Source: a virus. Taken from it: a stretch of 26,986 nt of DNA. A program made the position numbers and the translations under genes. Every line of letters starts with the position of its first letter. The stretch's first letter is position 1. Of this stretch, positions 3,541 to 26,986 are shown piece after piece. The DNA lies in the IMG/VR virus record IMGVR_UViG_3300043446_002583, positions 1 to 26,986 of that record; one strand, given 5' to 3'. The notes beneath the pieces are model-generated. The model had not been told where the DNA came from and did not search any database. It worked only from the letters and a program-made list of their open reading frames with translations.

Positions 3541-3749
3541 TATTTGCTACTCCCAAACGTCGCCGGCGGTTCCTGTTCGGCATTATCTACGATCCGTTCG
3601 GCGGCCAACACGGCGGCGCCGTATGATAAACAATACCCCGTTGATTTCGTCCCGCCGCTGGGCAGTTCCACAACTGCCCGCCACATACCGCCCCATTCCG
3701 TAAACGTCATGGTATACCCGCGGTATCGAATAATCCGTTGTTCTGTCAT
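3540..3749 (-). CDS. Small protein, probable paralogue of 4114-4308
   Basis: A 69-residue protein. I start it at the ATG at 3749, six bases after GGGGG; a GTG one codon upstream would sit too close. The core aligns with the protein of 4114-4308: a beta stretch ending in a Trp (GGMWRAVVELP versus GEHWFVRIPF), a Thr and Tyr, then a Gly and the helix AAVLAAERIVDNAE versus EALAAAELVIDALE. The two therefore look like diverged copies of one small alpha/beta fold separated by one gene. Function is unknown. Confidence 0.65.
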   Translation of the reverse strand: MTEQRIIRYRGYTMTFTEWGGMWRAVVELPSGGTKSTGYCLSYGAAVLAAERIVDNAEQEPPATFGSSK

Positions 3750-4117
3750 CACTCACCCCCATATAAATAATTCATAATCGCATCTTGTGCCCCGCGCCGT
3801 GCAACTTCGAGTAATTTATCGTCCATTTTTTGGACGTCCTCGCATAATGCGGCTAAATGTTCGGTTGCAATGCTGCGCAATACCGGTTTTATGCCGTCTT
3901 CCGTCATAACCCATTCTCCCGTTTCGTAGCACATAATCATTGATTTGTAATTCGGTGAACGCTTCGTACAAATCAACGTTATGATCGTTGCCAGTTTGTT
4001 GGCGTCGTCGTGGTTGCGTTGTTCTGCCACTGGTTGACGTGGTTTTGTAATAAACTCGCCAAATTGAGCGATGATTTCCGCCCGTTTGTTGGCGTCGTCG
4101 TGGTGTTGTTCATTCAT
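3749..4117 (-). CDS. Hypothetical protein with internal HDDANK duplication
   Basis: A 122-residue protein of unknown function. Its first third repeats itself: HHDDANKRAEIIAQF (residues 5-19) and NHDDANKLATIITLI (35-49), encoded by an exact 21-base direct repeat (3995-4015 and 4084-4104). The rest contains a short strand pair (MIMCYETGEWVMTEDGI) and a charged helical tail. The duplication looks recent because it is exact at DNA level over its core. It overlaps both neighbours by a few bases. Confidence 0.65.
   Translation of the reverse strand: MNEQHHDDANKRAEIIAQFGEFITKPRQPVAEQRNHDDANKLATIITLICTKRSPNYKSMIMCYETGEWVMTEDGIKPVLRSIATEHLAALCEDVQKMDDKLLEVARRGAQDAIMNYLYGGE
3995..4104. repeat. Pair of 21-bp direct repeats inside a gene
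   Basis: Positions 3995-4015 and 4084-4104 are identical, 89 bases apart, which is not a multiple of three off-frame: both read in the same frame as DDANK. They encode the repeated HDDANK segment of the 122-residue protein. Confidence 0.85.
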
Positions 4118-4308
4118 TCGTTATTCTCCTTTGGTTCCAATGCGTCTATTACCAGTTCCGCCGCCGCCAACGCCTCGCCCCGTGTTGGGTACTTTTTCCC
4201 CCAGTACGTCCCATGTGTGAACGGGATCCGTACAAACCAGTGTTCCCCGTCGCATACCAATGTAAAACGGATTCCCCCGTACATTGGCGTTTCAATGCTG
4301 CCACTCAT
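4114..4308 (-). CDS. First gene of unit 2; hypothetical small protein
   Basis: A 64-residue protein of unknown function, first gene after the promoter at 4348-4376. A strong site (GGAGGGGCGGGC) precedes the ATG at 4308; the open frame extends upstream, but that part covers the promoter and is not coding. Its core resembles the 3540-3749 protein (a Trp-containing strand, a Tyr-Pro turn, then the helix GEALAAAELVIDALE). The gene for the HDDANK protein starts within its stop codon. Confidence 0.7.
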   Translation of the reverse strand: MSGSIETPMYGGIRFTLVCDGEHWFVRIPFTHGTYWGKKYPTRGEALAAAELVIDALEPKENNE

Positions 4309-4347
4309 GCCCGCCCCTCCTTTTTTTGTTTTTTCTAATCCGAAACC

Positions 4348-4376
4348 ATTGTATGTACATACATGAAAGTTGTCAA
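4348..4376 (-). promoter_or_regulatory. Sigma-70-type promoter of unit 2
   Basis: On the minus strand TTGACA (4371-4376) is followed after exactly 17 bases by TACAAT (4348-4353), close to full consensus. It sits 40 bases before the first gene of the small-gene operon and reads away from the repeat region. Confidence 0.82.
4350..4363. promoter_or_regulatory. 14-bp palindrome overlapping the promoter (operator candidate)
   Basis: TGTATGTACATACA is a perfect palindrome covering part of the -10 hexamer and the spacer of the unit 2 promoter. This is the usual place for a dimeric repressor to block RNA polymerase. A second, shorter palindrome (GGTATATACC) lies upstream of the -35 at 4392-4401. The HTH proteins at 191-475, 835-1773 and 2274-2462 are candidate binders. 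Confidence 0.6.
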
Positions 4377-4603
4377 ACAAGGTAGACGGGCGGTATATAC
4401 CCCCCCGGGCGTCCACAGAATCCGCGAACGTTGGGCGGCCGCCGCTCCCGCCGTTGCGATCGCCCCGCAATGCTGGGGATTGGCGGGAACCGTTGGCCAA
4501 TGCTCCCAGCAACGGCGCATTGTCATGCGGTGTAGCGTCAATGTAAACAATAGCGCATATTTGTGTATTTGCGTTTACGGCGTTGTAATGCGGTATTTCG
4601 TTT

Positions 4604-4638
4604 TCAAAACAACATTTGTTTCAATAATGTTGTTTTGA
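4604..4638. repeat. Perfect 12-bp inverted repeat
   Basis: TCAAAACAACAT (4604-4615) and ATGTTGTTTTGA (4627-4638) are exact reverse complements around an 11-base loop. There is no gene ending here, so a protein-binding site or cruciform is more likely than a terminator. Confidence 0.75.
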
Positions 4639-4651
4639 CAATGCTTTACAC

Positions 4652-5265
4652 TTGCCCCGCATTGTTGGCCAATGTTGGGCGGGGATCGCAACGGCGCCCG
4701 GCGTTGGCGTCAATGTTGGGAGCATTGGCCAATACGCAACGCCCCGCAATAGCCCCTATTTGCCCCTATGCGCTACGATACGGCGCTATCCTATACGACA
4801 CTACCCGCAACACCGCAAAACGCCGTATAGCGTTGCGGGAGCATTGGCCAACGTTGGGCGGGAGCAATGCCGGGCAATGCTGGGGAGCGTTGGCCAACAA
4901 CGCCGGACATTGGGCGGGAGCGCTGCCGAACGTTGGCCAACCAGCGCCGCGCGGATCGCCGGACATTGGGCGGGAGCATTGGCCAACCAGCGCCGGACAT
5001 TGGGCGGGAGCATTGGCCAACGTTGGGCGGGAGCGGCGCCGGGCAATGCTGGGCAATGTTGGCCAACAACGCCGGACATTGGGCGGGAGCATTGGCCAAC
5101 GTTGGGCGGGAGCGGCGCCGGGCAATGCTGGGCAATGTTGGCCAACAACGCCGGACGTTGGGCGGGAGCGCTGCCGAACGTTGGCCAACAACGCCGGACG
5201 TTAGGCGGGAGCGCTGCCGAACGTTGGCCAACCAGCGCCGGACATTGGCGCTACTTTTCGAGCGT
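4652..5265. repeat. Mosaic GC-rich tandem repeats with TTGGCCAA cores
   Basis: Twelve copies of the palindrome TTGGCCAA lie here (4665, 4725, 4844, 4890, 4933, 4979, 5013, 5059, 5092, 5138, 5181, 5224), with a thirteenth at 4492. GGGCGGGAGC occurs eight times exactly (4856, 4912, 4968, 5002, 5025, 5081, 5104, 5160) and once with one change (5203). The units are a 43-bp type (4901-4943, 5149-5191, 5192-5234) and a 79-bp type that contains extra elements. No frame bias or start site supports coding. Confidence 0.88.
4991..5148. repeat. Perfect tandem duplication of a 79-bp unit
   Basis: 4991-5069 and 5070-5148 are identical base for base. Each starts CGCCGGACATTGGG, contains two TTGGCCAA palindromes, two GGGCGGGAGC elements and the GGCGCC palindrome. 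The lack of any difference points to recent duplication or ongoing homogenisation. Confidence 0.92.
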
Positions 5266-5322
5266 TGAAATATGAGTAATTTGCTAGGATTTGTCATATA
5301 TCCAAAAACGCCTCAATTTGGC

Positions 5323-5350
5323 GACAATGTGACCACCCAGTCACATTGTC
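5323..5350. repeat. Perfect 11-bp inverted repeat
   Basis: GACAATGTGAC (5323-5333) and GTCACATTGTC (5340-5350) are exact reverse complements around a 6-base loop. No T-run follows on either strand, so a protein-binding site near the AT-rich repeats fits better than a terminator. Confidence 0.75.
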
Positions 5351-5425
5351 CGCAAAACATGCGTTACTATACACATGTGTTATGTTGTTATGTTTGCCAC
5401 TTTAGCGCATCATAGACACTAAAAA

Positions 5426-5450
5426 AACATAACACCCCCCCTGTTATGTT
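5426..5450. repeat. Perfect 9-bp inverted repeat around a C-run
   Basis: AACATAACA (5426-5434) and TGTTATGTT (5442-5450) flank seven C bases. The arm contains the ATAACA word that recurs downstream. Confidence 0.7.
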
Positions 5451-5480
5451 CGTGTTATATTGTTATATTCGCCTCAAAAA

Positions 5481-5562
5481 AAACATAACAACATAACAAC
5501 ACATAACACATATAACACCATATAACAACATAACACGATATAACACATATAACACCATATAA
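5481..5562. repeat. AT-rich ATAACA repeats
   Basis: The word ATAACA recurs many times here, and a 23-base stretch ending CACCATATAA is repeated exactly at 5503-5525 and 5540-5562 (37-base period). The tract is far richer in A+T than the flanks, as expected for a duplex-unwinding element beside iterons. Confidence 0.82.
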
Positions 5563-5580
5563 GAGAATAAATAAGAGTAA

Positions 5581-5658
5581 TAGTGTGTATTTACTATTGG
5601 CTAGTGTGTATTTACTATTGGCTAGTGTGTATGTTCCGTTGGCTAGTGTGTATTTGGC
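5581..5658. repeat. Four 21-bp iteron-like tandem repeats
   Basis: Units at 5581-5601 and 5602-5622 are identical, 5623-5643 differs in the middle, and 5644-5658 is a shortened fourth. All begin TAGTGTGTAT and end TTGGC. Direct repeats of about two helix turns beside an AT-rich tract resemble initiator-binding iterons. No recognised replication initiator other than the primase-helicase is encoded. Confidence 0.85.
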
Positions 5659-5700
5659 ACTAATTCCAACAACCAGCGGCCGCCGCTCCCAGCGCCAAAA

Positions 5701-5725
5701 CGCCCGGCGGGTAATCCGCCGGGCG
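5701..5725 (-). terminator. Terminator of unit 1
   Basis: Arms CGCCCGGCGG (5701-5710) and CCGCCGGGCG (5716-5725) pair perfectly around a 5-base loop. On the minus strand the stem is followed by TTTT. It lies 22 bases after the stop codon of the last gene of unit 1. Confidence 0.85.
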
Positions 5726-5747
5726 CGCTGCCGTCATTTGGCCAAAT

Positions 5748-6179
5748 CTACAAACCGTTCCGCATTGCGTCGAACCGTTTCGCCCGTTCGGCGTCAACGT
5801 ACCATAGAAGATCGCCGAACGCGTCCACGTCGTGGCACGCCTCCCGATATCGGATATACAACCCGGTACAAATCCCGAACACGTCCGCCGTTTCCGCCGT
5901 CAAATCTAACCGTTTCCGGAATTGGATAGCGGCGCTGGTTTGGTTCAACCGCGACAACGTATCAATTTTAGCGGCATGATCCAACACTACTCCCCAGCGT
6001 TGCGCCTCCTCGGGCGGGAGAATGTCCACATAGTCGCTATACATCGCCGTCGCAATTTTGGCACGTTCCAACAGCGCCGGCATAACGTCGTCATTGCCGA
6101 TACAATCCAAACAAATCACCCGGCGCCCAACGGTTTTAATGCCACAAAACCGGCATAACATCGCCGTACTATGAAACAT
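5748..6179 (-). CDS. Zinc-ribbon-containing hypothetical protein
   Basis: A 143-residue protein, last gene of unit 1. The N-terminus carries LCRFCG (residues 8-13) and ICLDCIG (22-28), two CxxC pairs that make a small zinc ribbon. The remaining 110 residues are helical and charged without a recognised family. It starts at 6179 after AAGGGGAAACCA, overlapping the primase-helicase stop by 11 bases. Its place after the primase-helicase suggests a replication or transcription accessory role, but that is inference. Confidence 0.75.
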   Translation of the reverse strand: MFHSTAMLCRFCGIKTVGRRVICLDCIGNDDVMPALLERAKIATAMYSDYVDILPPEEAQRWGVVLDHAAKIDTLSRLNQTSAAIQFRKRLDLTAETADVFGICTGLYIRYREACHDVDAFGDLLWYVDAERAKRFDAMRNGL

Positions 6180-8271
6180 TGGTTTCCCCTTTCGTCAAAT
6201 AGAACAAATCCGTTGCCGCAATGCGGTTATCCTGAATTTGAAGCATACCCAAAATACGCAATAGTTTGTAATAATCGTCGTCTTCCTTCGCCTCGAGTAG
6301 TGCCGCGCGGTACTCAATCGGTACCCGTTTCCATATGTCGTCCGTGATTGGCCGCCATCGGTACCCCTTCGCCCCAAACATGCCCGGCGCTGGTTTATCA
6401 CTCACCGCAATCGATACGTCAATCTTGACGCCGTTCCCCAGCGCCTCGCTGATTTCCGCCGGCGCAAATGCCTTACGGACGCGATCCCCCACCGCTTGGT
6501 ATTTGCCCCGGCCAATTTTCCCGATATACCCGTCAGATTCCAACCGCCCCAATATCATACGTACGTTAGTTGTGGTTTTATCCACTTTGGCGGCAATGTC
6601 GCCGGCGTCGTGGGGTTCGCCGTCAATGAAACATTTCAGTACCCGCCGGCGTTCGCTCCCTACGATGATTTCGACGGCGTCCGCATCTTCGATACGGTGG
6701 CAATTGTGGTACATATCCCAGATAAGCGTAATTGGTTCCTTATCCGGCAAATTTCGGAACCGGGTATCGAGAATGGTAGCGTTTTTGTCCTTATCACTAC
6801 GCTTAATAATGAGCGTTCCGTCAACGGCGCCGGTTAACCCCGTTGTTCCCGATACCTCATCAAATGGATCATCGCTTTTCGCCTTCCGGGTATGGTGAAT
6901 CAAACAAATAACCACGTTGTGTTTGTGTGCCAACCGCTGAATTGGTTTAATTGCGTTGTAATCCTGTGCATATGCTGGGGTTCGTGGATCCGCCGGTTCG
7001 CGGAAGTTTTGCAATACGTCAATTACGACAAACCGTACTTTTGGGTTTGACGTCAAATACCCGTCTAATTGCGCCAACGCCTCAACCCCGCGTAAATTCC
7101 ACGTTTCACTAAATCCGAAATGCAACCCCGCCGGCCATGTTTCGTTTAGTAGATGCATCAGTTTCAACCGCTGGGAAATGCCGTTTTCATTGCCTTCCAA
7201 ATCGAGATATAACGCTTCGTGTTTCGTTGCGTTGAAACTGCCGAACACCATTCCGCCTTTCGCAACTTGTAACAACACATGAAGCATTAGCCACGATTTT
7301 TTAGACTTGGGTTTACCAACGACCAGATAACACCCGGGGATAAATAACTCGTCAACGATGAAATCCGGCGGCGCAAATTCGATACCCTGTAAATCGGCGG
7401 CCGTAATCGTTTTGGGCGGTACAAATGCGACGGTTTCGAGCGGCGGCAATTTGTAAATGCTGGTTGGATCGTCGGTGTACTTCAAATAGTCGCATACGTC
7501 GCCGCCCTTATCCAATCCCAAATCAACCGTACGGGCAATGTAGCGAAATCCGATTAATTGCGATTGTAATTTGACGGCCGCATTGCGTCCGGCAATGTCG
7601 CAATCCAGCGCTATCACAATATGGTTGCCCGCTGGGTATTTGCTTACCAACTCTTCGAGCAGCGTTTCCGATACGGTGCGTTCGCTCCCCGTGGTTTGGC
7701 AAAACGTCGGCAAACCCTTAATTTGGCCAACCACGGCGGATATTTCCCCGTTCACCATGATTAACGGCGTTTTGGTTTTGGCGGCAATGTCTAACGCCTC
7801 GGCTAATAAATACCAGCATGAGCGGTACCCCTTCGCATGTTGGTACCGGGGTTGCATACCGTCCAAATAGCGGTAGCGCTCCCCAGAACGGGTTATAAAT
7901 CGGAACCCGTTCCGTTTCCCGCTGGTGTAGACGTGCCACCCATAGCGGGTTAATTGCTCAACCGTAACGCCGTGATCGGCGGCGTATTCCTCGGCGGTTT
8001 GCGCCCGCTTGGTATCGGCGGCGCGCGGTTTCTCCCGTTGTATGCCGCACATATCCGCCAATGAGTACAACGAATACCCGGCGTTGTTGCGGGTTCTGTC
8101 TACCGCCGTGCCGGATTCGTCGCCGGTAATCATCACCTCGAAACTCTTACTATCCGCCGTTGGATCCCACGGGCGATTACCGATATAAACGCCGTCTTTC
8201 GTTTCGACAAACCCGCGCTCTAATAGATAGTCAATCACCCGGCGGGCGGTACTGGTATTACTAATATACAT
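6169..8271 (-). CDS. TOPRIM primase / RecA-like helicase (RepA/AAA_25 type)
   Basis: A 700-residue replication protein. Residues about 165-255 form a TOPRIM domain with Glu176 (MVNGEIS) and the ALDCDIAG motif (Asp223, Asp225). Residues about 295-500 form a RecA-fold ATPase: the Walker A variant GKPKSKKS (319-326), Walker B VVID (415-418) and LIHHTRK (457-463), all typical of the RepA/AAA_25 helicase group. After about residue 520 there is a winged-helix-like segment (AGDIAAKVDKTTTNVRMILGRLESDGYIGKIGRG). I see no zinc-binding primase domain at the N-terminus. It presumably unwinds and primes phage DNA with host polymerase. No DNA polymerase is encoded. The start site is weak (AGG 8 bases before the ATG), just after a hairpin at 8287-8313. 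Confidence 0.9.
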   Translation of the reverse strand: MYISNTSTARRVIDYLLERGFVETKDGVYIGNRPWDPTADSKSFEVMITGDESGTAVDRTRNNAGYSLYSLADMCGIQREKPRAADTKRAQTAEEYAADHGVTVEQLTRYGWHVYTSGKRNGFRFITRSGERYRYLDGMQPRYQHAKGYRSCWYLLAEALDIAAKTKTPLIMVNGEISAVVGQIKGLPTFCQTTGSERTVSETLLEELVSKYPAGNHIVIALDCDIAGRNAAVKLQSQLIGFRYIARTVDLGLDKGGDVCDYLKYTDDPTSIYKLPPLETVAFVPPKTITAADLQGIEFAPPDFIVDELFIPGCYLVVGKPKSKKSWLMLHVLLQVAKGGMVFGSFNATKHEALYLDLEGNENGISQRLKLMHLLNETWPAGLHFGFSETWNLRGVEALAQLDGYLTSNPKVRFVVIDVLQNFREPADPRTPAYAQDYNAIKPIQRLAHKHNVVICLIHHTRKAKSDDPFDEVSGTTGLTGAVDGTLIIKRSDKDKNATILDTRFRNLPDKEPITLIWDMYHNCHRIEDADAVEIIVGSERRRVLKCFIDGEPHDAGDIAAKVDKTTTNVRMILGRLESDGYIGKIGRGKYQAVGDRVRKAFAPAEISEALGNGVKIDVSIAVSDKPAPGMFGAKGYRWRPITDDIWKRVPIEYRAALLEAKEDDDYYKLLRILGMLQIQDNRIAATDLFYLTKGETNVS

Positions 8272-8328: not shown

Positions 8329-9111
8329 TTAGAACGGTTTAATTTCGTCATCGGCGTACGGTTGGGGTTCGTTGTGGGATTCCTCGCGCATATGAACGGG
8401 CAATGGTTGGGCGTCGTGTCCGCCCCGGCGTTGTTTCGCCCAATCGGCAAATTGAATCACCAATTCCGCGCCCAGTTGCAACCGTTCGGTGCCAACGTAC
8501 AATTTGTTGATTGTATCCATTGACGGTTCATATTTGGGGTTACATACCGGGATTGTTACGGTAGATCCGTGCCCCGTGCTGGTGTAGACGGGTTGCCCCT
8601 TCTTGTCCGTTGGCGGTACGATTGGGATATACAACGCCCAACCCGGGAACGCCATTTTCCCCGATTTGCGGGCAAATGCGCCAATGCTGGTATGGAACGT
8701 TTCCATTACGCCGCCCTTGCCATAAATTGCCCGGCTAATCATGCCCTTGGTTACCAGTACCGCCGGTTCGTCGATGCCCCGTACAAACCCGATTTGCTCG
8801 CTATATTTTCGGCTGCCGGGTTCGTAATGTCCTAACCAAACCGTACGTTTCGTTTGGGGATCCGTGGTAAACCACTGCTCCCGGTACGCAATTGGCGCAA
8901 ACCACAATTCCCCAGTGCTATACCCGTCCTCGTCCGGGAACCGTTGGGAAACCGCCCAACCCTCCCCAGCGTCCGCGGTTTTGGTGTAGAATTCGCCGTT
9001 GGTGCGTACCGTTTTGGCGTCTACCCCGTTGAAATAGTAGATGCGCGGCAGATTGTCGCCCGTGGTTTCCTGTTTGTAATCCAATCCTTTGATGTCGTCA
9101 AAAATACTCAT
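8329..9111 (-). CDS. Probable phage single-stranded-DNA-binding protein
   Basis: A 260-residue protein directly before the primase-helicase. The body is beta-rich with many aromatic residues (GELWFAPIAYREQWF, GWALYIPIVPP), compatible with a DNA-binding OB-type fold, but I do not recognise a named family. The C-terminus is disordered and ends ADDEIKPF, which imitates the acidic tip ending in Pro-Phe of bacterial SSB proteins (DDDIPF) that recruits partner enzymes. It starts at 9111 after GGAGGAGAACCAGTA. SSB is an inference from the tail and position; a recombination or nucleotide-binding protein remains possible. Confidence 0.6.
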   Translation of the reverse strand: MSIFDDIKGLDYKQETTGDNLPRIYYFNGVDAKTVRTNGEFYTKTADAGEGWAVSQRFPDEDGYSTGELWFAPIAYREQWFTTDPQTKRTVWLGHYEPGSRKYSEQIGFVRGIDEPAVLVTKGMISRAIYGKGGVMETFHTSIGAFARKSGKMAFPGWALYIPIVPPTDKKGQPVYTSTGHGSTVTIPVCNPKYEPSMDTINKLYVGTERLQLGAELVIQFADWAKQRRGGHDAQPLPVHMREESHNEPQPYADDEIKPF

Positions 9112-9305
9112 TACTGGTTCTCCTCCATACGAATACCGCGCGCGGCGGCCGCTTCAATAATACACAACCGAATAATCCGGGAAATGCTGGGCGGCGCCCC
9201 CGCCTTGGATTTCATGAGTTGTAACCCGATTTCCCACAACGCCCGCATTTCCCCCGCCGTTATGCTGATGTTTTGGCGGTACCACTTCTTCGTTTGTTCC
9301 GTCAT
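9111..9305 (-). CDS. Ribbon-helix-helix-like small protein
   Basis: A 64-residue protein (starting MTEQTKKWYRQN). I chose the ATG at 9305, which follows GGGGGG and overlaps the upstream stop as ATGA, over one nine codons earlier. The pattern QNISITAGEMRALWEIGLQLM, then SISRIIRLCIIEAAAARG, matches strand-helix-helix. It is coupled to the SSB-like gene by TAATG. A DNA-binding regulator is plausible. Confidence 0.65.
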   Translation of the reverse strand: MTEQTKKWYRQNISITAGEMRALWEIGLQLMKSKAGAPPSISRIIRLCIIEAAAARGIRMEENQ

Positions 9306-9478
9306 GCCGTCCCCCCTTGCGCCCGGATCCATACCCGGGCGCGCGCTAATGCCTCATCAAATTTCAATTCGGCGGCGGTGTAGACTTCGCGCCGCTCGAA
9401 TACCACAATAGCCAGATACCCGCCGGATTTGGTTGTATAGACGTTCACCGTATACGCGCCGTATTTGTAGGATTTCAT
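9302..9478 (-). CDS. Small hypothetical protein
   Basis: A 58-residue basic protein (starting MKSYKYGAYTVNVYTTKSGG, ending RAQGGTA). It is short and easily missed, but ATGA overlaps on both sides fix it in the operon: its start lies in the stop of the gene at 9475-9756, and its stop lies in the start of the 9111-9305 gene. It has a beta start and a helical end (TAAELKFDEALARARVWI). Function unknown. Confidence 0.72.
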   Translation of the reverse strand: MKSYKYGAYTVNVYTTKSGGYLAIVVFERREVYTAAELKFDEALARARVWIRAQGGTA

Positions 9479-9756
9479 AGTATACCATCACTTACGCCGG
9501 CGTTTTTACTCACGATCCCCGCCCAGCGTTCCAACTCATACGCCGCCGCATTGCGTACCGTCCGTATCATGTTGGCCAATTGTTCGGCGTTGCGGACGTT
9601 GTCGAATTGCTGCCGAACGATTGGGAGCGCCCCGGGTTCCCGGGCGTCAATATATGCGGTTGCTGTCCAATGCGTAGCCCCCATTGGTTTTACACAATCA
9701 ATAAACAGCGTTACGCCCTCCCGCAAATCGTGGTATTCCTGAAATTGATACATCAT
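9475..9756 (-). CDS. Hypothetical protein
   Basis: A 93-residue protein of unknown function. The chosen ATG at 9756 follows GGGGGA and 9 bases; eight more codons upstream are open but overlap the previous gene. The first half looks like beta strands (GVTLFIDCVKPMGATHWTATAYIDAR), the second is helical (NAEQLANMIRTVRNAAAYELERWAGIV). Confidence 0.68.
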   Translation of the reverse strand: MMYQFQEYHDLREGVTLFIDCVKPMGATHWTATAYIDAREPGALPIVRQQFDNVRNAEQLANMIRTVRNAAAYELERWAGIVSKNAGVSDGIL

Positions 9757-9760
9757 GGTA

Positions 9761-9970
9761 CTAATTCCCCCAGTTCGCAATAATTGCGCCGTACACGTTC
9801 ACCACGTCCGCCCAACGCTGGTAAATGAACCCGTCCAAATAGCGGCCGTCGATCATAACCGTAGCCTTGATGCGTTCCGCCGTGATGAAACGGACGGGCG
9901 TAATCGTGATTGTGTGTTTGCCATTGGTTGCCACAAACGGGCGGGGTAATTCGCGGTACTGCTGGTTCAT
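9761..9970 (-). CDS. Small MNQQY-type gene of the hairpin cassette array
   Basis: A 69-residue protein (MNQQYRELPRPF...). Its body is a small beta-rich basic protein of unknown function. It shares the first five residues MNQQY with the gene at 10293-10526 and MNQQ with 10585-10800, at DNA level ATGAACCAGCAG, while the bodies do not align. It follows 48-bp block A (9980-10027). Confidence 0.68.
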   Translation of the reverse strand: MNQQYRELPRPFVATNGKHTITITPVRFITAERIKATVMIDGRYLDGFIYQRWADVVNVYGAIIANWGN

Positions 9971-9979
9971 GTTCCTACT

Positions 9980-10027
9980 CTCCTTGTTGGTTGGGCGCCG
10001 GGGATTTCCCGGCGCCCGGGCGGTTGT
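9980..10027 (-). repeat. Intergenic hairpin block A
   Basis: A 48-base block filling the gap between two small genes. Arms GGGCGCCGGG (9993-10002) and CCCGGCGCCC (10008-10017) enclose a 5-base loop. On the minus strand it is followed by AACCAACAAGGAG, the ribosome site of the next gene. It is identical to block B. Confidence 0.92.
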
Positions 10028-10237
10028 CTAGTAATGCGTAAATGTTGCGATATACTCGGCGCCGTCAATAAACGTAATCGAATATACGCGAATTGTTGCG
10101 GTTTTGTCTACCAATGTTTGCATACCCTTATTTAATTCCCGCATGTGGTTTTTCGTCGCCTTGTCGTGTGCCAACCCGCGCAAATGCCCAAATTGTAGAA
10201 TTACGCCCGTTGGGGTTTTGAGTGTTACAAGTTTCAT
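10028..10237 (-). CDS. Small gene of the hairpin cassette array
   Basis: A 69-residue basic protein (MKLVTLKTPTGVILQFG...) of unknown function. It lies between blocks A and B and starts after AAGGAGAACCAGCA. Beta segments flank a Lys/His-rich middle (LAHDKATKNHMRELNKGM). It lacks the MNQQ start of its neighbours, but its ribosome site contains the same GAACCAGCA word. Confidence 0.68.
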   Translation of the reverse strand: MKLVTLKTPTGVILQFGHLRGLAHDKATKNHMRELNKGMQTLVDKTATIRVYSITFIDGAEYIATFTHY

Positions 10238-10245
10238 TGCTGGTT

Positions 10246-10293
10246 CTCCTTGTTGGTTGGGCGCCGGGGATTTCCCGGCGCCCGGGCGGTTGT
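10246..10293 (-). repeat. Intergenic hairpin block B
   Basis: Second copy of the 48-base block, identical to block A. Arms at 10259-10268 and 10274-10283. It starts right at the stop codon of the upstream gene and ends at the ribosome site of the downstream gene. Confidence 0.92.
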
Positions 10294-10526
10294 TATTCCT
10301 CGATCAATTCCAAATCACGAATGTTGTACTCGTACATAATTGGCGTTTTGGTAGTGCGGCACAAACCGGCATTGCACATAATGTAATTGCCTTTTTTGTC
10401 CGGCGTGAATGAATACCCAACGATTGCGCCGGATCCCATTACTACCCGTTTCAACCGTTCCCCAGTAACGGCGGTTACGATGCTCCCGCGCCCAAATCCC
10501 TTTAATACTCGGTACTGCTGGTTCAT
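10293..10526 (-). CDS. Small MNQQY-type gene of the hairpin cassette array
   Basis: A 77-residue protein (MNQQYRVLKGFGRGSIV...). The first 50 residues are Gly-rich beta (TAVTGERLKRVVMGSGAIVGYSF); the end holds two cysteines (MCNAGLCR) and an acidic tail. Function unknown. It sits between blocks B and C. Confidence 0.68.
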   Translation of the reverse strand: MNQQYRVLKGFGRGSIVTAVTGERLKRVVMGSGAIVGYSFTPDKKGNYIMCNAGLCRTTKTPIMYEYNIRDLELIEE

Positions 10527-10536
10527 GGTTCCTTTT

Positions 10537-10584
10537 CTCCTTCTTGGTTGGGCGCCGGGGATTTCCCGGCGCCCGGGCGGTTGT
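10537..10584 (-). repeat. Intergenic hairpin block C
   Basis: Third copy of the 48-base block, one base different from A and B (C for G at the seventh base). Arms at 10550-10559 and 10565-10574. Same position between a stop codon and a ribosome site. Confidence 0.92.
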
Positions 10585-10800
10585 TTAGATCTGATTAAAC
10601 CATTCGGGCATTGGTTCGCCGTTGTACCCCATCATAAGCGCCGTTGCGTGGTCATCTTGGCCGGTGCGTTCGAACGCTTCCGCCACCAATTCGATATTTG
10701 GCGCGTTCAATTCGCGCATCTGCCGTCCAATCATGAATACGTTTTTGATTGTCAACAACTCGGCCTTGGTGCGGATTTTGGCGGTAAACTGCTGGTTCAT
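10585..10800 (-). CDS. First gene of unit 1; small MNQQ-type protein
   Basis: A 71-residue helical protein (MNQQFTAKIRTKAELL...) directly after the unit 1 promoter. The site AAGGAG lies 8 bases before the ATG. It is probably among the first phage proteins made. The sequence has no cysteine or membrane segment, and ends GEPMPEWFNQI. I recognise no family. Early small phage genes often act on host functions, but nothing here shows the target. Confidence 0.72.
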   Translation of the reverse strand: MNQQFTAKIRTKAELLTIKNVFMIGRQMRELNAPNIELVAEAFERTGQDDHATALMMGYNGEPMPEWFNQI

Positions 10801-11007: not shown

Positions 11008-11478
11008 TCACGGAATAGCGCCGGTGAGTTGCACAATAGATAGTATTGGGGATTCCTGCAGCACGCCTTCGGCGGCAACGTTAAGCGTTGTATTTGCGGA
11101 CGGCGTAACGGTTATACGTAGCGTATCACCGGTTGAGTAGTACCGCATAAATGCGCCAACGTGTCGCGTCGTTGCGGTTGAGTAAAACATAAAATTCCCT
11201 ATCAATGTCCCGTTCACCGTGACAGATGCAAACCCGGTAACGTTTGCCGCATATTGGAGGGATAATTCCAACAAGTAAAACCCGCTGGTTGGTATGGTTA
11301 CGTCGGTTGTTGCCCACGTAATCCCAATACCGCGCGTTTGTGATTGCCATGTAATCACCGTTCCCGTTGACAAAACCGCTAATGATGCCGTTCTCGTCAA
11401 TGTCAACGCCGCAAACGGCGTTTCGTTGCGCCGTACTACTTCCGCCTGTCGTTGATCAAATTGGTTGCTAGATTGCAT
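11008..11478 (-). CDS. Distal tail protein with C1q/TNF-like jelly-roll
   Basis: A 156-residue protein, last of the tail genes. After a short N-terminal helix rich in Gln and Arg, residues 20-155 are all short beta strands with the pattern of a compact jelly-roll (TIPTSGFYLLELSLQYAAN, ASVTVNGTLIGNFMF, DTLRITVTPSANTTLNV). This layout fits the C1q/TNF-like head domains found in phage receptor-binding proteins. It overlaps the hub gene by 11 bases. Host binding is inferred from fold impression and position after the hub. Confidence 0.65.
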   Translation of the reverse strand: MQSSNQFDQRQAEVVRRNETPFAALTLTRTASLAVLSTGTVITWQSQTRGIGITWATTDVTIPTSGFYLLELSLQYAANVTGFASVTVNGTLIGNFMFYSTATTRHVGAFMRYYSTGDTLRITVTPSANTTLNVAAEGVLQESPILSIVQLTGAIP

Positions 11479-12556
11479 TTAATTCTACTTTCACCGATTC
11501 CCGCCCGGCGCTATCAATCCCCAGTTTCACGCCGTAAATTTTTTGTGAAACCGTGGTTGTACCGGTGTACACGCTGACTAAATCCCCTATGAAATAGTGA
11601 ACGCCGTATAGCGCGCTGGGGATTTGCACAATATCGGCGTCATACGTAACCCGCCCGCGCGTAAACGCCCCCAATTCCGCACTACCGATATTTTGGAGCG
11701 CTGCCGTTGTGGTTTGGCCGTTGCGGGCGTCTACCCAAATTTCCCGGCTATCAATGCCCGTTGATAGTACTGCCGGCCGGGTTACGATTTGCCGGGCGGA
11801 TTCCGTACCCGCTCCCGCAACAATAGCGGTTGTTGCGTCTTTTAATCGTGGTTCGGAAATCGTTAGCCGCCCAATGCTGCCCTTTTCAACGCTGAATTGG
11901 ACGGACGCGGTGCGATCCGTTCCACGTTGCCCGGTATACCATGTAAACGTATACGTGGTTGGCGCCGTATAGATGACGGCAAAATCACCGCCGGCCAATT
12001 CCTGAATTTTTTGCATTGCGGATAACAGATTTTCCCCCGCTACGCTGATGGTAATACTATTCCCGGCGCCCGTGGTTGCGGCCGTGGTTGCGCCGGATAA
12101 TACCCCAGATAAAAACCGCCCGTTTGCCGTGGTTGCTAAACTCCCCAGATTATAGTTAAACAACGTTTTTAGCACAGTTTCCGCCGGTTGCGCGCTAAAC
12201 GTCGAGCGATTGGCAACGCCGGCATACCATGCAATGACGCGGTTTTGTAGCAACCACTCAAACCCCGCCGCAATGATTTTACGGGTTGTAATCGGCGCAA
12301 TTTCGGTTACTGAATCAACCACGATCCCCGCAAACTCACGGGTAACCGGAATTCCAAGCGCTGAATCCTGACGGTACACCTCAACATATACCCCGTATGT
12401 GAAACTAGAAAAATAGTAGTTGTCACTCGTCAACACGATTTGCGCCAAATCGAACGCATTGAGTACCCGGCTAACATTGACGGATATAAACCCCGTCACG
12501 TTCCCCACGGCAACCCCGGCGCTGGTATACAATTGTACGGTGTAGATTGGTGCCAT
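11468..12556 (-). CDS. Tail hub / Gp37-like baseplate protein
   Basis: A 362-residue protein resembling the siphophage ReqiPepy6 Gp37-like family, the baseplate hub that closes the tail tip. Recognisable parts are the N-terminal beta sandwich (YTVQLYTSAGVAVGNV, VEVYRQDSAL, FAGIVVDSV), the central block with FEWLLQNRVI and the ADETVLKTL-like helix AQPAETVLKTLFN, and a C-terminal half with GDLVSVYTG and ESVKVELNAI. It overlaps the preceding gene as TAATG. The order Dit, appendage, hub and jelly-roll is consistent with a siphovirus tail tip. Confidence 0.75.
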   Translation of the reverse strand: MAPIYTVQLYTSAGVAVGNVTGFISVNVSRVLNAFDLAQIVLTSDNYYFSSFTYGVYVEVYRQDSALGIPVTREFAGIVVDSVTEIAPITTRKIIAAGFEWLLQNRVIAWYAGVANRSTFSAQPAETVLKTLFNYNLGSLATTANGRFLSGVLSGATTAATTGAGNSITISVAGENLLSAMQKIQELAGGDFAVIYTAPTTYTFTWYTGQRGTDRTASVQFSVEKGSIGRLTISEPRLKDATTAIVAGAGTESARQIVTRPAVLSTGIDSREIWVDARNGQTTTAALQNIGSAELGAFTRGRVTYDADIVQIPSALYGVHYFIGDLVSVYTGTTTVSQKIYGVKLGIDSAGRESVKVELNAI

Positions 12557-23626: not shown

Positions 23627-24823
23627 TTAAAAATACCCCCATTGCATACTACGCGCGCCTATCATATGAACCGCGCCGCTGACGGCGTCTATCATATCGT
23701 CATGCGCCCCTATAGGGAATGATACACACTCATCTAAAAAAATACGGTTCCAATCCCCGCGCAATAGTGCTAATTTTTTCTGTTCCGCCCGTGCCGCCCA
23801 CGGCATCGCCCGGGCGCGCTTATCCCCGCGCGCAACCACGCCGTGAAACGTAATATTTGCCATTGCTGGTTCTCGTCGCAATTCTTGTAACCCCGCTAAC
23901 CCATGTAACGATTCCTCAATACCAATCACAACCCGGGGTTCGTCTTGGGCACGTTGCATAATTTGCCGGCGTATGTCCGGCCATTCGCCTTTATGCCGGG
24001 TAACGTCCGCAATGTATAGCGTTCCATCATCACCAAATGCGCATTTTGCCGAGGCGGTGTAATCCGCCGCTTGTTTCACTGATGCGGCCAAATCGTAATA
24101 CCGGTACCAATCCAACCGTTCGGCGTTGTCGATATACTCAACGTATTGGAACCAGTCGCGTTTAAATAGCGCCCCGGCGGCGTCTACAAACTTCCCTTCG
24201 CTTTCCTGTGCGTATTGTTCGGCGGTATATGTCCGGCGCAATATTTCGACAAATGAATCATGCAAATAGATGTTATCCGCCGTACGGGATTCAATCATTG
24301 CGTAATCTTCGCCGCCCGTCGTCCATAACTCATAAATCCAATTACGCCCGCGCGGGGTTGTGGTAATCCATGCTTTGCCGGGTTGTTCCCGCAATGTCGC
24401 TATAACAATGCTCCACGTTTCCGGGTTCATTAGCGCCGCCTCGTCCAACCACAACCAACCCAAATTAGCACCGCGTAATCTGTCCGGCGCATCGGCAGAA
24501 CGGAATTTAATAACGCGATCGCCCAATAATCGCATTTCGCCGTATGTTTGGTTGTAATCCTGAATAATCCCCGCTTGGTTGGCTATGGTTTGCACGGTAC
24601 GTAGTGCGCCGTCGCGTAACATCTGATTCGTTGGCGCAATAATCATGCCCACGCTCCCCGGCGGCATACGTAGCGCCTCAATAGCGCCGGCGTGCGTTTT
24701 CCCGCTGCCGCGTCCCCCAACGAACATACGGAATAACGCCGGGTTATTCCAAAATTCATTTTGCGGTTTTGTCGCCGTTTTTTGCGTTAGTACTCGCGCG
24801 TTCAGGGGTAATGTCAATGACAT
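23627..24823 (-). CDS. terL: Terminase large subunit
   Basis: A 398-residue packaging motor. Walker A is GGRGSGKT (residues 36-43), Walker B LGWLWLDEAA (121-130, Asp127-Glu128), and the coupling motif ITTTPRG is at 153-159. The nuclease part shows Asp244 (YYDLAASV), Glu303-Glu304 (GIEES) and Asp375/Asp376/Asp379 (AHDDMIDA). It pumps DNA into the prohead and cuts concatemers. The start overlaps TerS by 68 bases and lacks a strong ribosome site, so coupled translation from TerS is likely. Length is slightly below many TerL proteins. Confidence 0.95.
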   Translation of the reverse strand: MSLTLPLNARVLTQKTATKPQNEFWNNPALFRMFVGGRGSGKTHAGAIEALRMPPGSVGMIIAPTNQMLRDGALRTVQTIANQAGIIQDYNQTYGEMRLLGDRVIKFRSADAPDRLRGANLGWLWLDEAALMNPETWSIVIATLREQPGKAWITTTPRGRNWIYELWTTGGEDYAMIESRTADNIYLHDSFVEILRRTYTAEQYAQESEGKFVDAAGALFKRDWFQYVEYIDNAERLDWYRYYDLAASVKQAADYTASAKCAFGDDGTLYIADVTRHKGEWPDIRRQIMQRAQDEPRVVIGIEESLHGLAGLQELRREPAMANITFHGVVARGDKRARAMPWAARAEQKKLALLRGDWNRIFLDECVSFPIGAHDDMIDAVSGAVHMIGARSMQWGYF

Positions 24824-25229
24824 AATCGGTAACCGCCTTTTGTACTTGTTCGTATTTATCCCGGTATACGTTCGGGCGCATCGCCTTTAGGAAAAACATC
24901 ATTAGCAGATCGCTAGACTTTTCCGCCCGTGCCCGCCCGATTGCCTCAAGGCGTCCTATACTGATTTCCCGCGCCATATCCTCGAGTTCCGCAAATTCCG
25001 GGTTGAGTTGCGCCGCCTTCTTAATCGCGCCAAAATGAACGCCGGCATGTTGGGCGGCCGTGGTTTTGTTGCCCGTCAATGCTAGGGTAACTAAATAGTG
25101 TTTTGCCCACGGATACGCCGCTTTCACGTCGTCCGGGATTTCTGCTAATGGAATTGTGATTATTTCCCCCGTTGGGGAGAAATCCGCCGGTATAATCATT
25201 GGCAAAAAATCGCGCGTTTCATCACTCAT
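24756..25229 (-). CDS. terS: Terminase small subunit-like protein
   Basis: A 157-residue protein just before TerL. The centre has WAKHYLVTLALTGNKTTAAQHAGVHFGAIKKAAQLNPEFAELEDMAREISIGRLEAIGRAR, a helix-turn-helix DNA-binding part followed by a long helix used for oligomer formation, the usual TerS plan. Residues 107-157 are the C-terminal part (SSDLLMMFFLKAMRPNVYRDKYE). It recognises phage DNA for packaging. Its ATG overlaps the stop of the holin-like gene as ATGA. Confidence 0.85.
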   Translation of the reverse strand: MSDETRDFLPMIIPADFSPTGEIITIPLAEIPDDVKAAYPWAKHYLVTLALTGNKTTAAQHAGVHFGAIKKAAQLNPEFAELEDMAREISIGRLEAIGRARAEKSSDLLMMFFLKAMRPNVYRDKYEQVQKAVTDYVIDITPERASTNAKNGDKTAK

Positions 25230-26187: not shown

Positions 26188-26203
26188 ACAACCCCCCAGC
26201 GTT

Positions 26204-26222
26204 CCATACTTGTATTGTATGG
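26204..26222. repeat. Short inverted repeat before the amidase gene
   Basis: CCATAC (26204-26209) and GTATGG (26217-26222) flank a 7-base AT-rich loop in the leader of the amidase gene. It could be an operator or a leader hairpin. No convincing -35/-10 pair is seen beside it. Confidence 0.5.
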
Positions 26223-26275
26223 TATACTAACGCCTGTAGGGTTGCTGGTTCCAATCCTCGCCCCTCCTAAACATT

Positions 26276-26307
26276 GCCCGCGCCGTTTAGCATGGAACGG
26301 CGCGGGC
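26276..26307 (-). terminator. Strong hairpin after the coiled-coil gene
   Basis: GCCCGCGCCGTT (26276-26287) and AACGGCGCGGGC (26296-26307) pair perfectly over 12 bases, just after the stop of the coiled-coil gene. On the minus strand AATGTTTAGG follows, so the T-run is poor. It may be a leaky terminator that lowers the small-gene messenger before lysis and structural genes, since no good promoter is visible downstream of it. Confidence 0.7.
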
Positions 26308-26312
26308 GTGGT

Positions 26313-26960
26313 TTATTTCATTACCCGGCGAATATAGACGGCCAAATCGTGTAAGTAATCCCGCACTTGCTGTATAGCGCTATCCCCTTGCAAAAATCCC
26401 ATACGGATTAAATAATTGACGTCCCAAATTTTCGCCCATACTATATCCTCGATTTGCTGCCGATTGAGTACCGTATTTTCCAAACGGGTTATTTTGGCGT
26501 TCATAGCGTCGATAATAACCCGTTGTTCGTCCACCCGCTTTAGTGCGGCGTTGGCCGTTGCCATTGCGCTATTTGCCGCCGTTCGGGCGGTTGCAATTTC
26601 TTGTTTTAATAGCGCTACTTGGTTTTCGTTAATGTCAATCACGGTTGCGCTGGGGATATCGTCCCAATAGACGAACCCGGCTATTTCAATTTCGTATTGT
26701 CGTTTGTCGTTGCCGGTGTATACCAAAAACAATTTTTTGTTATTGATGAGTAATCCGCCGTTGGCGTCCTTCGCAAATGCGACCAATTCGGATTTTTGCC
26801 CGGGTTTGGTTCGCCAAATATGTATACCCCAATCGCCGGCGGCGGTTTGTTTTCCAACAATCTGTTGGTAGATAACGCCGGTTCGATCTATGTACGTCCA
26901 CGCGCCCCCAGCGCTATACGCTTCCATCGGCGCCGGTAATGCGATTACGTCGTTTTTCAT
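26313..26960 (-). CDS. Coiled-coil phage protein, possible virion or fibre protein
   Basis: A 215-residue protein with three parts: a beta-rich N-terminus (residues 1-110; GGAWTYIDRTGVIYQQIVG, GDWGIHIWRT, KLFLVYTGNDKRQYEIEIAGFVYW), a long coiled coil (112-165; NQVALLKQEIATARTAANSAMATANAALKRVDEQR and MNAKITRLENTVL) and a helical C-terminus (166-215). No family is recognised. A trimeric fibre or spike-like part before the lysis genes is possible. Residue 37 is Lys here and Arg in the partial copy at 1-237. Confidence 0.7.
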   Translation of the reverse strand: MKNDVIALPAPMEAYSAGGAWTYIDRTGVIYQQIVGKQTAAGDWGIHIWRTKPGQKSELVAFAKDANGGLLINNKKLFLVYTGNDKRQYEIEIAGFVYWDDIPSATVIDINENQVALLKQEIATARTAANSAMATANAALKRVDEQRVIIDAMNAKITRLENTVLNRQQIEDIVWAKIWDVNYLIRMGFLQGDSAIQQVRDYLHDLAVYIRRVMK

Positions 26961-26986
26961 TGCGTTGCCTCGCTCGCTGTAATTGG
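26724..26986. repeat. Right copy of terminal direct repeat
   Basis: This stretch equals bases 1-263 except for five substitutions. It contains the 5' half of the coiled-coil gene and the last 26 bases lead into the HTH gene at 191-475, as expected for overlapping ends. Confidence 0.93.

Follow-up and report, generated by a model that had tools for sequence, protein, structure and literature searches.

A Putative Iteron-Type Replication Origin near the Primase-Helicase Gene of an Unclassified Small Siphovirus-like Phage

Genome Organization and Borders of the Non-Coding Interval

What function is served by a repeat-rich non-coding interval of 1,438 bp (positions 4310-5747) that lies between two genes of the same strand in a small phage genome? 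When ORFs of at least 45 aa are counted as cover, only one other gap of at least 100 bp (26188-26312) is found in the window, i.e., in the whole analyzed stretch, the virus contig IMGVR_UViG_3300043446_002583 with a length of 26,986 bases. The record is classed as linear and probably represents a complete circular map. It contains an imperfect end repeat of 263 bp (1-263 and 26724-26986), which gives a circular map of 26,723 bp; the record ends and this repeat fall inside the gene 26313-26960. The two copies of the end repeat differ near positions 128-145, which suggests strain variation within the sample.

Nearly all genes are located on the minus strand. The encoded proteins include the small and large subunits of the terminase, the portal protein, a capsid protein with a protease-like N-terminal part, tail proteins including the tape measure protein, an amidase, a VRR-nuclease-like protein, and a primase-helicase. 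A search of the phage collection with the record using megablast gave zero matches. The large terminase is less than 60% identical to all entries of this collection, the best matches showing 27-30% identity. The virus is an unclassified small siphovirus-like phage. In addition, positions 191-475 encode a 94-aa HTH protein similar to a PHROG annotated as plasmid antitoxin with HTH domain. Three near-identical GC-rich hairpins with a 10-bp stem (9979-10012, 10245-10279, and 10544-10570; z from about -3.6 to -4.0) were found between small minus-strand genes, directly ahead of ribosome-binding sites; since they have no T run, they are perhaps mRNA processing or stability elements.

The original prediction described a 1.3-kb non-coding repeat region; the region is real and non-coding, and its borders were corrected to those given above. 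They are set by the stop of the upstream gene at 5748 and by the start of the downstream gene at 4309, an ATG preceded by GGAGG. Both the ATG and the GGAGG are identical in the contig L007 of a close relative. A 14-bp direct repeat, which had been thought to flank the region, is indeed present at 4436 and 5677. It is composed of words of the GC-rich mosaic described below (GCTCCC and GGGAGC being complementary), and 90 further distinct 14-mers are also repeated elsewhere in the genome, so that it does not mark an edge; a boundary or a target-site duplication was ruled out on the same grounds.

In the direction of transcription, the interval contains a terminator-like hairpin, 21-bp iterons, AT-rich words, a hairpin at 5323-5350, the GC-rich mosaic, and a promoter. 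The terminator-like hairpin (5697-5726, minus strand) follows the helicase operon and consists of an 11-bp GC stem with TTTT; the terminator scanner missed it because there are only four T. At the far side, a near-consensus sigma-70-like promoter (4348-4376, minus strand; TTGACA-17-TACAAT, 11/12) drives the leftward operon from 4309, the first gene of which occupies 4114-4309 on the minus strand. A 14-bp palindrome, TGTATGTACATACA (4350-4363), overlaps the -10 box and, as read from the sequence, is a candidate operator.

Upstream of the interval, three minus-strand genes were analyzed. The gene 5748-6179 encodes a 143-aa protein with a CxxC...CxxC motif, the position of which matches that of a Zn-ribbon-like protein of related phages. 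Homology of these two proteins was considered and not accepted, the layout being similar and the score not significant. The next gene (6169-8271) encodes a 700-aa primase-helicase with Toprim-like and AAA_25 parts and a winged-helix-like C-terminal part, for which the Pfam scores are slightly under the cut-off; a sequence search of the PDB with this helicase gave no match. The gene 8329-9111 encodes a conserved 260-aa protein of the replication cluster.

Iterons and Facing Words of the AT-Rich Part

An iteron-type origin would be expected to have at least three tandem iterons with a common sequence within its replication region, an adjoining A+T-rich region, and a replication gene adjoining or containing the array. 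Each of these features was found here. The iterons (5581-5655, plus strand; TRF score 122) amount to 3.6 copies, with four TAGTGTGTAT at an exact spacing of 21 bp. They adjoin an AT-rich block (5378-5562) with a G+C content of 31%, versus approximately 51% in the genome, and the primase-helicase gene is located one gene away.

The AT-rich block carries an array of short facing words. Five TGTTAT are located at 5378, 5386, 5442, 5453, and 5461, and eight ATAACA are located on the right side (5485-5549), with one more ATAACA at 5429. Together, 14 copies of the two words were observed versus 1.2 expected, the maximum in 1000 dinucleotide shuffles being 6. To the left of 5470, five of six words have one orientation, and to the right all eight have the opposite one; an arrangement with one exception in 14 has p ~0.02 versus random strands. 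The words follow each other at steps of 8-11 bp, and those of 8-10 bp lack helical phasing, which speaks against the origin reading. A perfect inverted repeat of 18 nt is also present (5378-5395/5481-5498). The hairpin at 5323-5350 has perfect 11-bp arms, GACAATGTGAC and GTCACATTGTC, a 6-nt loop, and no T run (z -6.0). Thus, the ATAACA repeats, 21-bp iterons, and perfect inverted repeats reported originally were found without exception. We propose that the facing words of 5378-5562 represent iterons combined with an unwinding element.

Palindrome Array of the GC-Rich Part

The GC-rich mosaic (4430-5250) contains 13 exact copies of the palindrome TTGGCCAA and eight words GGGCGGGAGC, all of the latter on the plus strand. 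These counts agree exactly with those first reported and are far above the values in dinucleotide shuffles (0.09 and 0.006, respectively). In the dense part of the array (4844-5231), the palindromes are 33-46 bp apart; a 14th TTGGCCAA is located outside the mosaic at 5738. In addition, a hairpin with perfect 11-bp arms, CAAAACAACAT and ATGTTGTTTTG, was detected at 4605-4637 (z -4.8). Several open frames are present in this part. A protein-coding reading was nevertheless rejected, since successive TTGGCCAA spacings of 46, 43, 46, 34, 46, and 33 bp shift the frame.

The palindrome core is strictly invariant. No one-mismatch copies of TTGGCCAA were found in 4430-5250, and in seven copies the core is identical although the flanks are less than 60% alike (mean 43%). 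Column identity is 1.0 at the eight core positions and mostly 0.2-0.6 beyond the core, with two more invariant positions, an A four bases 5' of the core and a G nine bases 3' of it. An exact core amid variable flanks points to selection acting on a duplex DNA site. At the same time, the array shows tandem growth, with a 79-bp unit present in 2.6 copies with 94% matches.

An exact 19-mer of the repeat family had no match in viral contigs, nor had a 22-mer in genome contigs of bacteria and archaea. A search with a three-part gapped pattern detected two unrelated bacterial matches and a single Gly-rich protein-coding repeat present in eight copies, and BLASTN analysis of the interval found no match among phages and plasmids. 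A repeat family common to hosts or other phages was therefore dismissed, and the searches run detected no counterpart of the GC-rich array among phages, plasmids, viral contigs, or the genomes of bacteria and archaea.

Comparison with Related Phages

A capsid search identified a wider group of phages (~42% capsid identity) with conserved gene order. Two of its members, G022 and G031, carry the helicase; G037, L072, and L073 were added by a helicase profile search, and L074, which matches the helicase over a part only, was left out. L072 and L073 are nearly identical and were counted once; with G031 and G037 also being close to each other, the five sequences represent approximately three independent lineages. 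The window helicase is 37-38% identical to that of the relatives over the full length. In L039, the counterparts of the tail genes 11008-11478 and 11468-12556 are inverted (9106-10645), which may be an inversion or an assembly fault.

In all five relatives, the 3' end of the helicase gene contains two facing arrays, which are located past the winged-helix-like part. The words are 9-10 bp long; the left arm consists of 5-6 TYACTCT at 9-bp steps, and the right arm is composed of AGAGTRA. From first to last, the right-arm steps are 20-10-11-46-9 and are the same in all five. Two of these steps, 10 and 11 bp, do not keep the codon phase, which favors a constraint acting on DNA rather than on protein. 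The word is GAGTGAA in G022 versus GAGTGAC/GAGTAAC in the others, both arms having changed together. L072 also contains a perfect array of ten 9-bp units GAAGTCGCC (731-820), which is in codon phase and probably coding. G037 has an exact 123-bp end repeat and is therefore probably complete; it contains no other comparable array or gap, its remaining tandem repeats being short and weak and its gaps being below 200 bp.

An array was sought in the helicase gene of the window, and none was found. The facing words of the window begin approximately 0.6 kb beyond the helicase stop, one gene further, and share with the relatives the layout in which the left words have one direction and the right words the opposite one. 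ATAACA of the window and AGAGTRA of the relatives are not demonstrably homologous, the variant AGAGTAAC having only the TAAC core in common. This is too little for homology, so the equivalence of the arrays is based on their layout, neighborhood, and mutually exclusive location. No counterparts of the 21-bp iteron set and no array like the GC-rich palindrome array were found in the relatives.

The only close relative, L007, has a large terminase with 97% identity and is collinear with the window over most of the map. Its contig begins at window position ~4334, the edge of the interval, where the comparison stops; such a break fits a hard-to-assemble repeat region and proves nothing. Approximately 1.3 kb (277-1611) is inserted in L007 between the counterparts of the genes 4114-4309 and 3749-4117. 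Searches of viral contigs at high identity with the helicase and its neighbors detected no close relative spanning the interval.

A replication module of another type was found in the sister phage G023, which at the same place has an unrelated D5-type primase-helicase with no match to the window helicase. The AGAGTRA array was looked for in this phage and is absent; a spacer of ~190 bp with inverted GTGCGCA words directly follows the primase-helicase gene. If the array serves the module as its origin, the array type should vary with that of the replication gene, and in this one case the two have changed together. The replication cluster of G023 also includes a C-5 cytosine methylase gene (L067, 6466-7380).

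Taken together, these data indicate, with a probability of about 0.7, that a tailed phage with its own Toprim/AAA_25 primase-helicase has its replication origin region at 4310-5747. This origin is probably of the iteron type and relocated outside the helicase gene. The suggestion of an origin made from the sequence is thus supported by comparison, because relatives with the same helicase carry a facing array within the gene, while that of the window lies a short distance downstream of the gene. As for the claim of a new type, the palindrome array alone is without a counterpart, and the iteron part is a variation on a familiar kind of origin. GC skew and four-fold-site skew show no sign change anywhere, including the interval. 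Cumulative GC skew falls steadily, with a local rise at 4.5-5.5 kb that corresponds to the repeat array itself. Because the genes lie on one strand, GC skew is uninformative as a test of the origin.

Alternative Explanations

The region had also been viewed as a packaging locus, i.e., a pac or cos site where the terminase small subunit would bind the palindromes and start packaging. Some cos and pac sites do have repeated binding sites, and a gene encoding a terminase small-subunit-like protein is present (24756-25229). However, terminase recognition sites are usually within or adjoining the small-subunit gene, which on the circular map is ~6 kb distant here. By family, the terminase belongs to a headful-like type, the record ends elsewhere, with the imperfect end repeat, and no observation links the region to an end; such a region is also missing from relatives whose large terminases are 52% identical, and the packaging explanation is therefore very improbable. 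Plasmid-like maintenance, the other function originally suggested, would make the interval a partition centromere of a phage-plasmid, in which a ParB-like protein would recognize the TTGGCCAA array in the way that SopB recognizes the 43-bp repeats of F. The 13 identical palindromes, many of them 43-46 bp apart, are reminiscent of F parS with its twelve 43-bp repeats (PMC6238139) and agree with the repeated palindromic sites of a ParABS system; in addition, no integrase was recognized, and one HTH protein is similar to a plasmid antitoxin family. Against this, the spacing is irregular (33-46 bp), and the relatives have no such array. Pfam analysis of the predicted proteins revealed neither a ParA-type ATPase nor a ParB-type or other centromere-binding protein, although a binding protein of an unrecognized kind may be encoded. 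Despite the F-centromere-like layout, partition appears improbable.

The GC-rich part could also be a structured RNA or a regulatory leader, as the folding of both strands is better than that of shuffled sequences (z -6.4 and -5.3). However, arrays of palindromes and inverted repeats always fold well, no Rfam family was matched, and no strong promoter is directed into this part; the exactness of the palindrome core amid variable flanks suggests a duplex DNA site, and the RNA explanation is highly unlikely. Somewhat more probable, and still rather unlikely, is the view that the array is selfish or grew by slippage and lies, functionless, next to the true origin. It would agree with the recent tandem growth of the 79-bp unit and with the absence of the array from the relatives. 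Nevertheless, the conservation of TTGGCCAA in 13 of 13 copies, including the seven with diverged flanks and with no one-mismatch copy, is unlike unconstrained decay, and this explanation does not account for the iteron part.

Proposed Mechanism and Significance

For the iteron-type origin, the following order of events can be suggested by analogy with known origins. Binding of a phage initiator to the 21-bp iterons and to the short facing words would come first. The candidates for this role are the winged-helix-like part of the helicase and the small protein encoded beside it, and the 700-aa primase-helicase is proposed as the initiator/helicase. The block with 31% G+C would then open, the primase-helicase would load, and replication would start. 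The hairpin 5697-5726 may stop transcription of the helicase operon and so shield the origin, and the promoter at the far side of the interval, presumably repressible, would drive the next operon. In the relatives, the array would act from within the 3' end of the helicase gene, from which it appears to have been moved outside in the window. The GC-rich palindromes most likely provide the origin region with a second array of protein-binding sites, which may control initiation or organize DNA.

If so, unclassified small tailed phages gain a testable origin and a likely case in which some members have the origin within the primase-helicase gene and another has it outside. This provides a natural comparison of how the surrounding DNA behaves once released from coding. 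The array of invariant palindromes makes a clear candidate for a phage DNA-binding system not described before. A further possibility, speculative and on balance unlikely, is that the 13 invariant TTGGCCAA represent a phage cis-element of a new kind, to which a phage protein would bind and which would cooperate with an origin relocated from the helicase gene; its roles could be, for example, holding or pairing origins, controlling initiation, or organizing the genome. Since repeat regions break assemblies, origins of this kind are probably under-reported.

Similarity to Known Systems

The centromere parS (sopC) of the F plasmid consists of twelve 43-bp repeats, each with an inverted repeat (PMC6238139). 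The window array is similar in layout only, with about a dozen units of ~43 bp and a palindrome in each. It differs in the palindrome itself and in its irregular spacing, and no SopA/SopB-like genes were found. In the satellite phage P4, the alpha primase-helicase is the main replication protein, and repeat arrays (ori, crr) are located nearby. The combination of a primase-helicase and nearby repeat arrays is the same in the window, and the sister phage G023 has a D5-type primase-helicase, whereas the window helicase is of the AAA_25 and not the D5 type, and the repeats are unrelated.

Iterons with an AT-rich melting region are the usual layout of the origins of lambda and plasmids (PMC3985674, PMC5043065). 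In iteron plasmids of the P1, F, RK2, and R6K class, as in the window, tandem iterons are approximately two helical turns apart (21 bp in the window) and lie beside an A+T-rich region (PMC5043065). In contrast to these plasmids, no RepA/TrfA-type initiator was recognized in the window, where the neighbor is a Toprim/AAA_25 primase-helicase. The origin of lambda is located inside its own initiator gene, and within the replication cluster its direct iterons adjoin an AT-rich melting region (PMC3985674, PMC5043065). The iterons of the window have the same surroundings, and its relatives likewise hold their array inside a replication gene. However, the four 19-bp iterons of lambda are bound by O, which is not a helicase, whereas the relatives and the window have short facing words inside or after a primase-helicase gene; in the window, these words are outside the gene and a GC-rich palindrome array is added to them.
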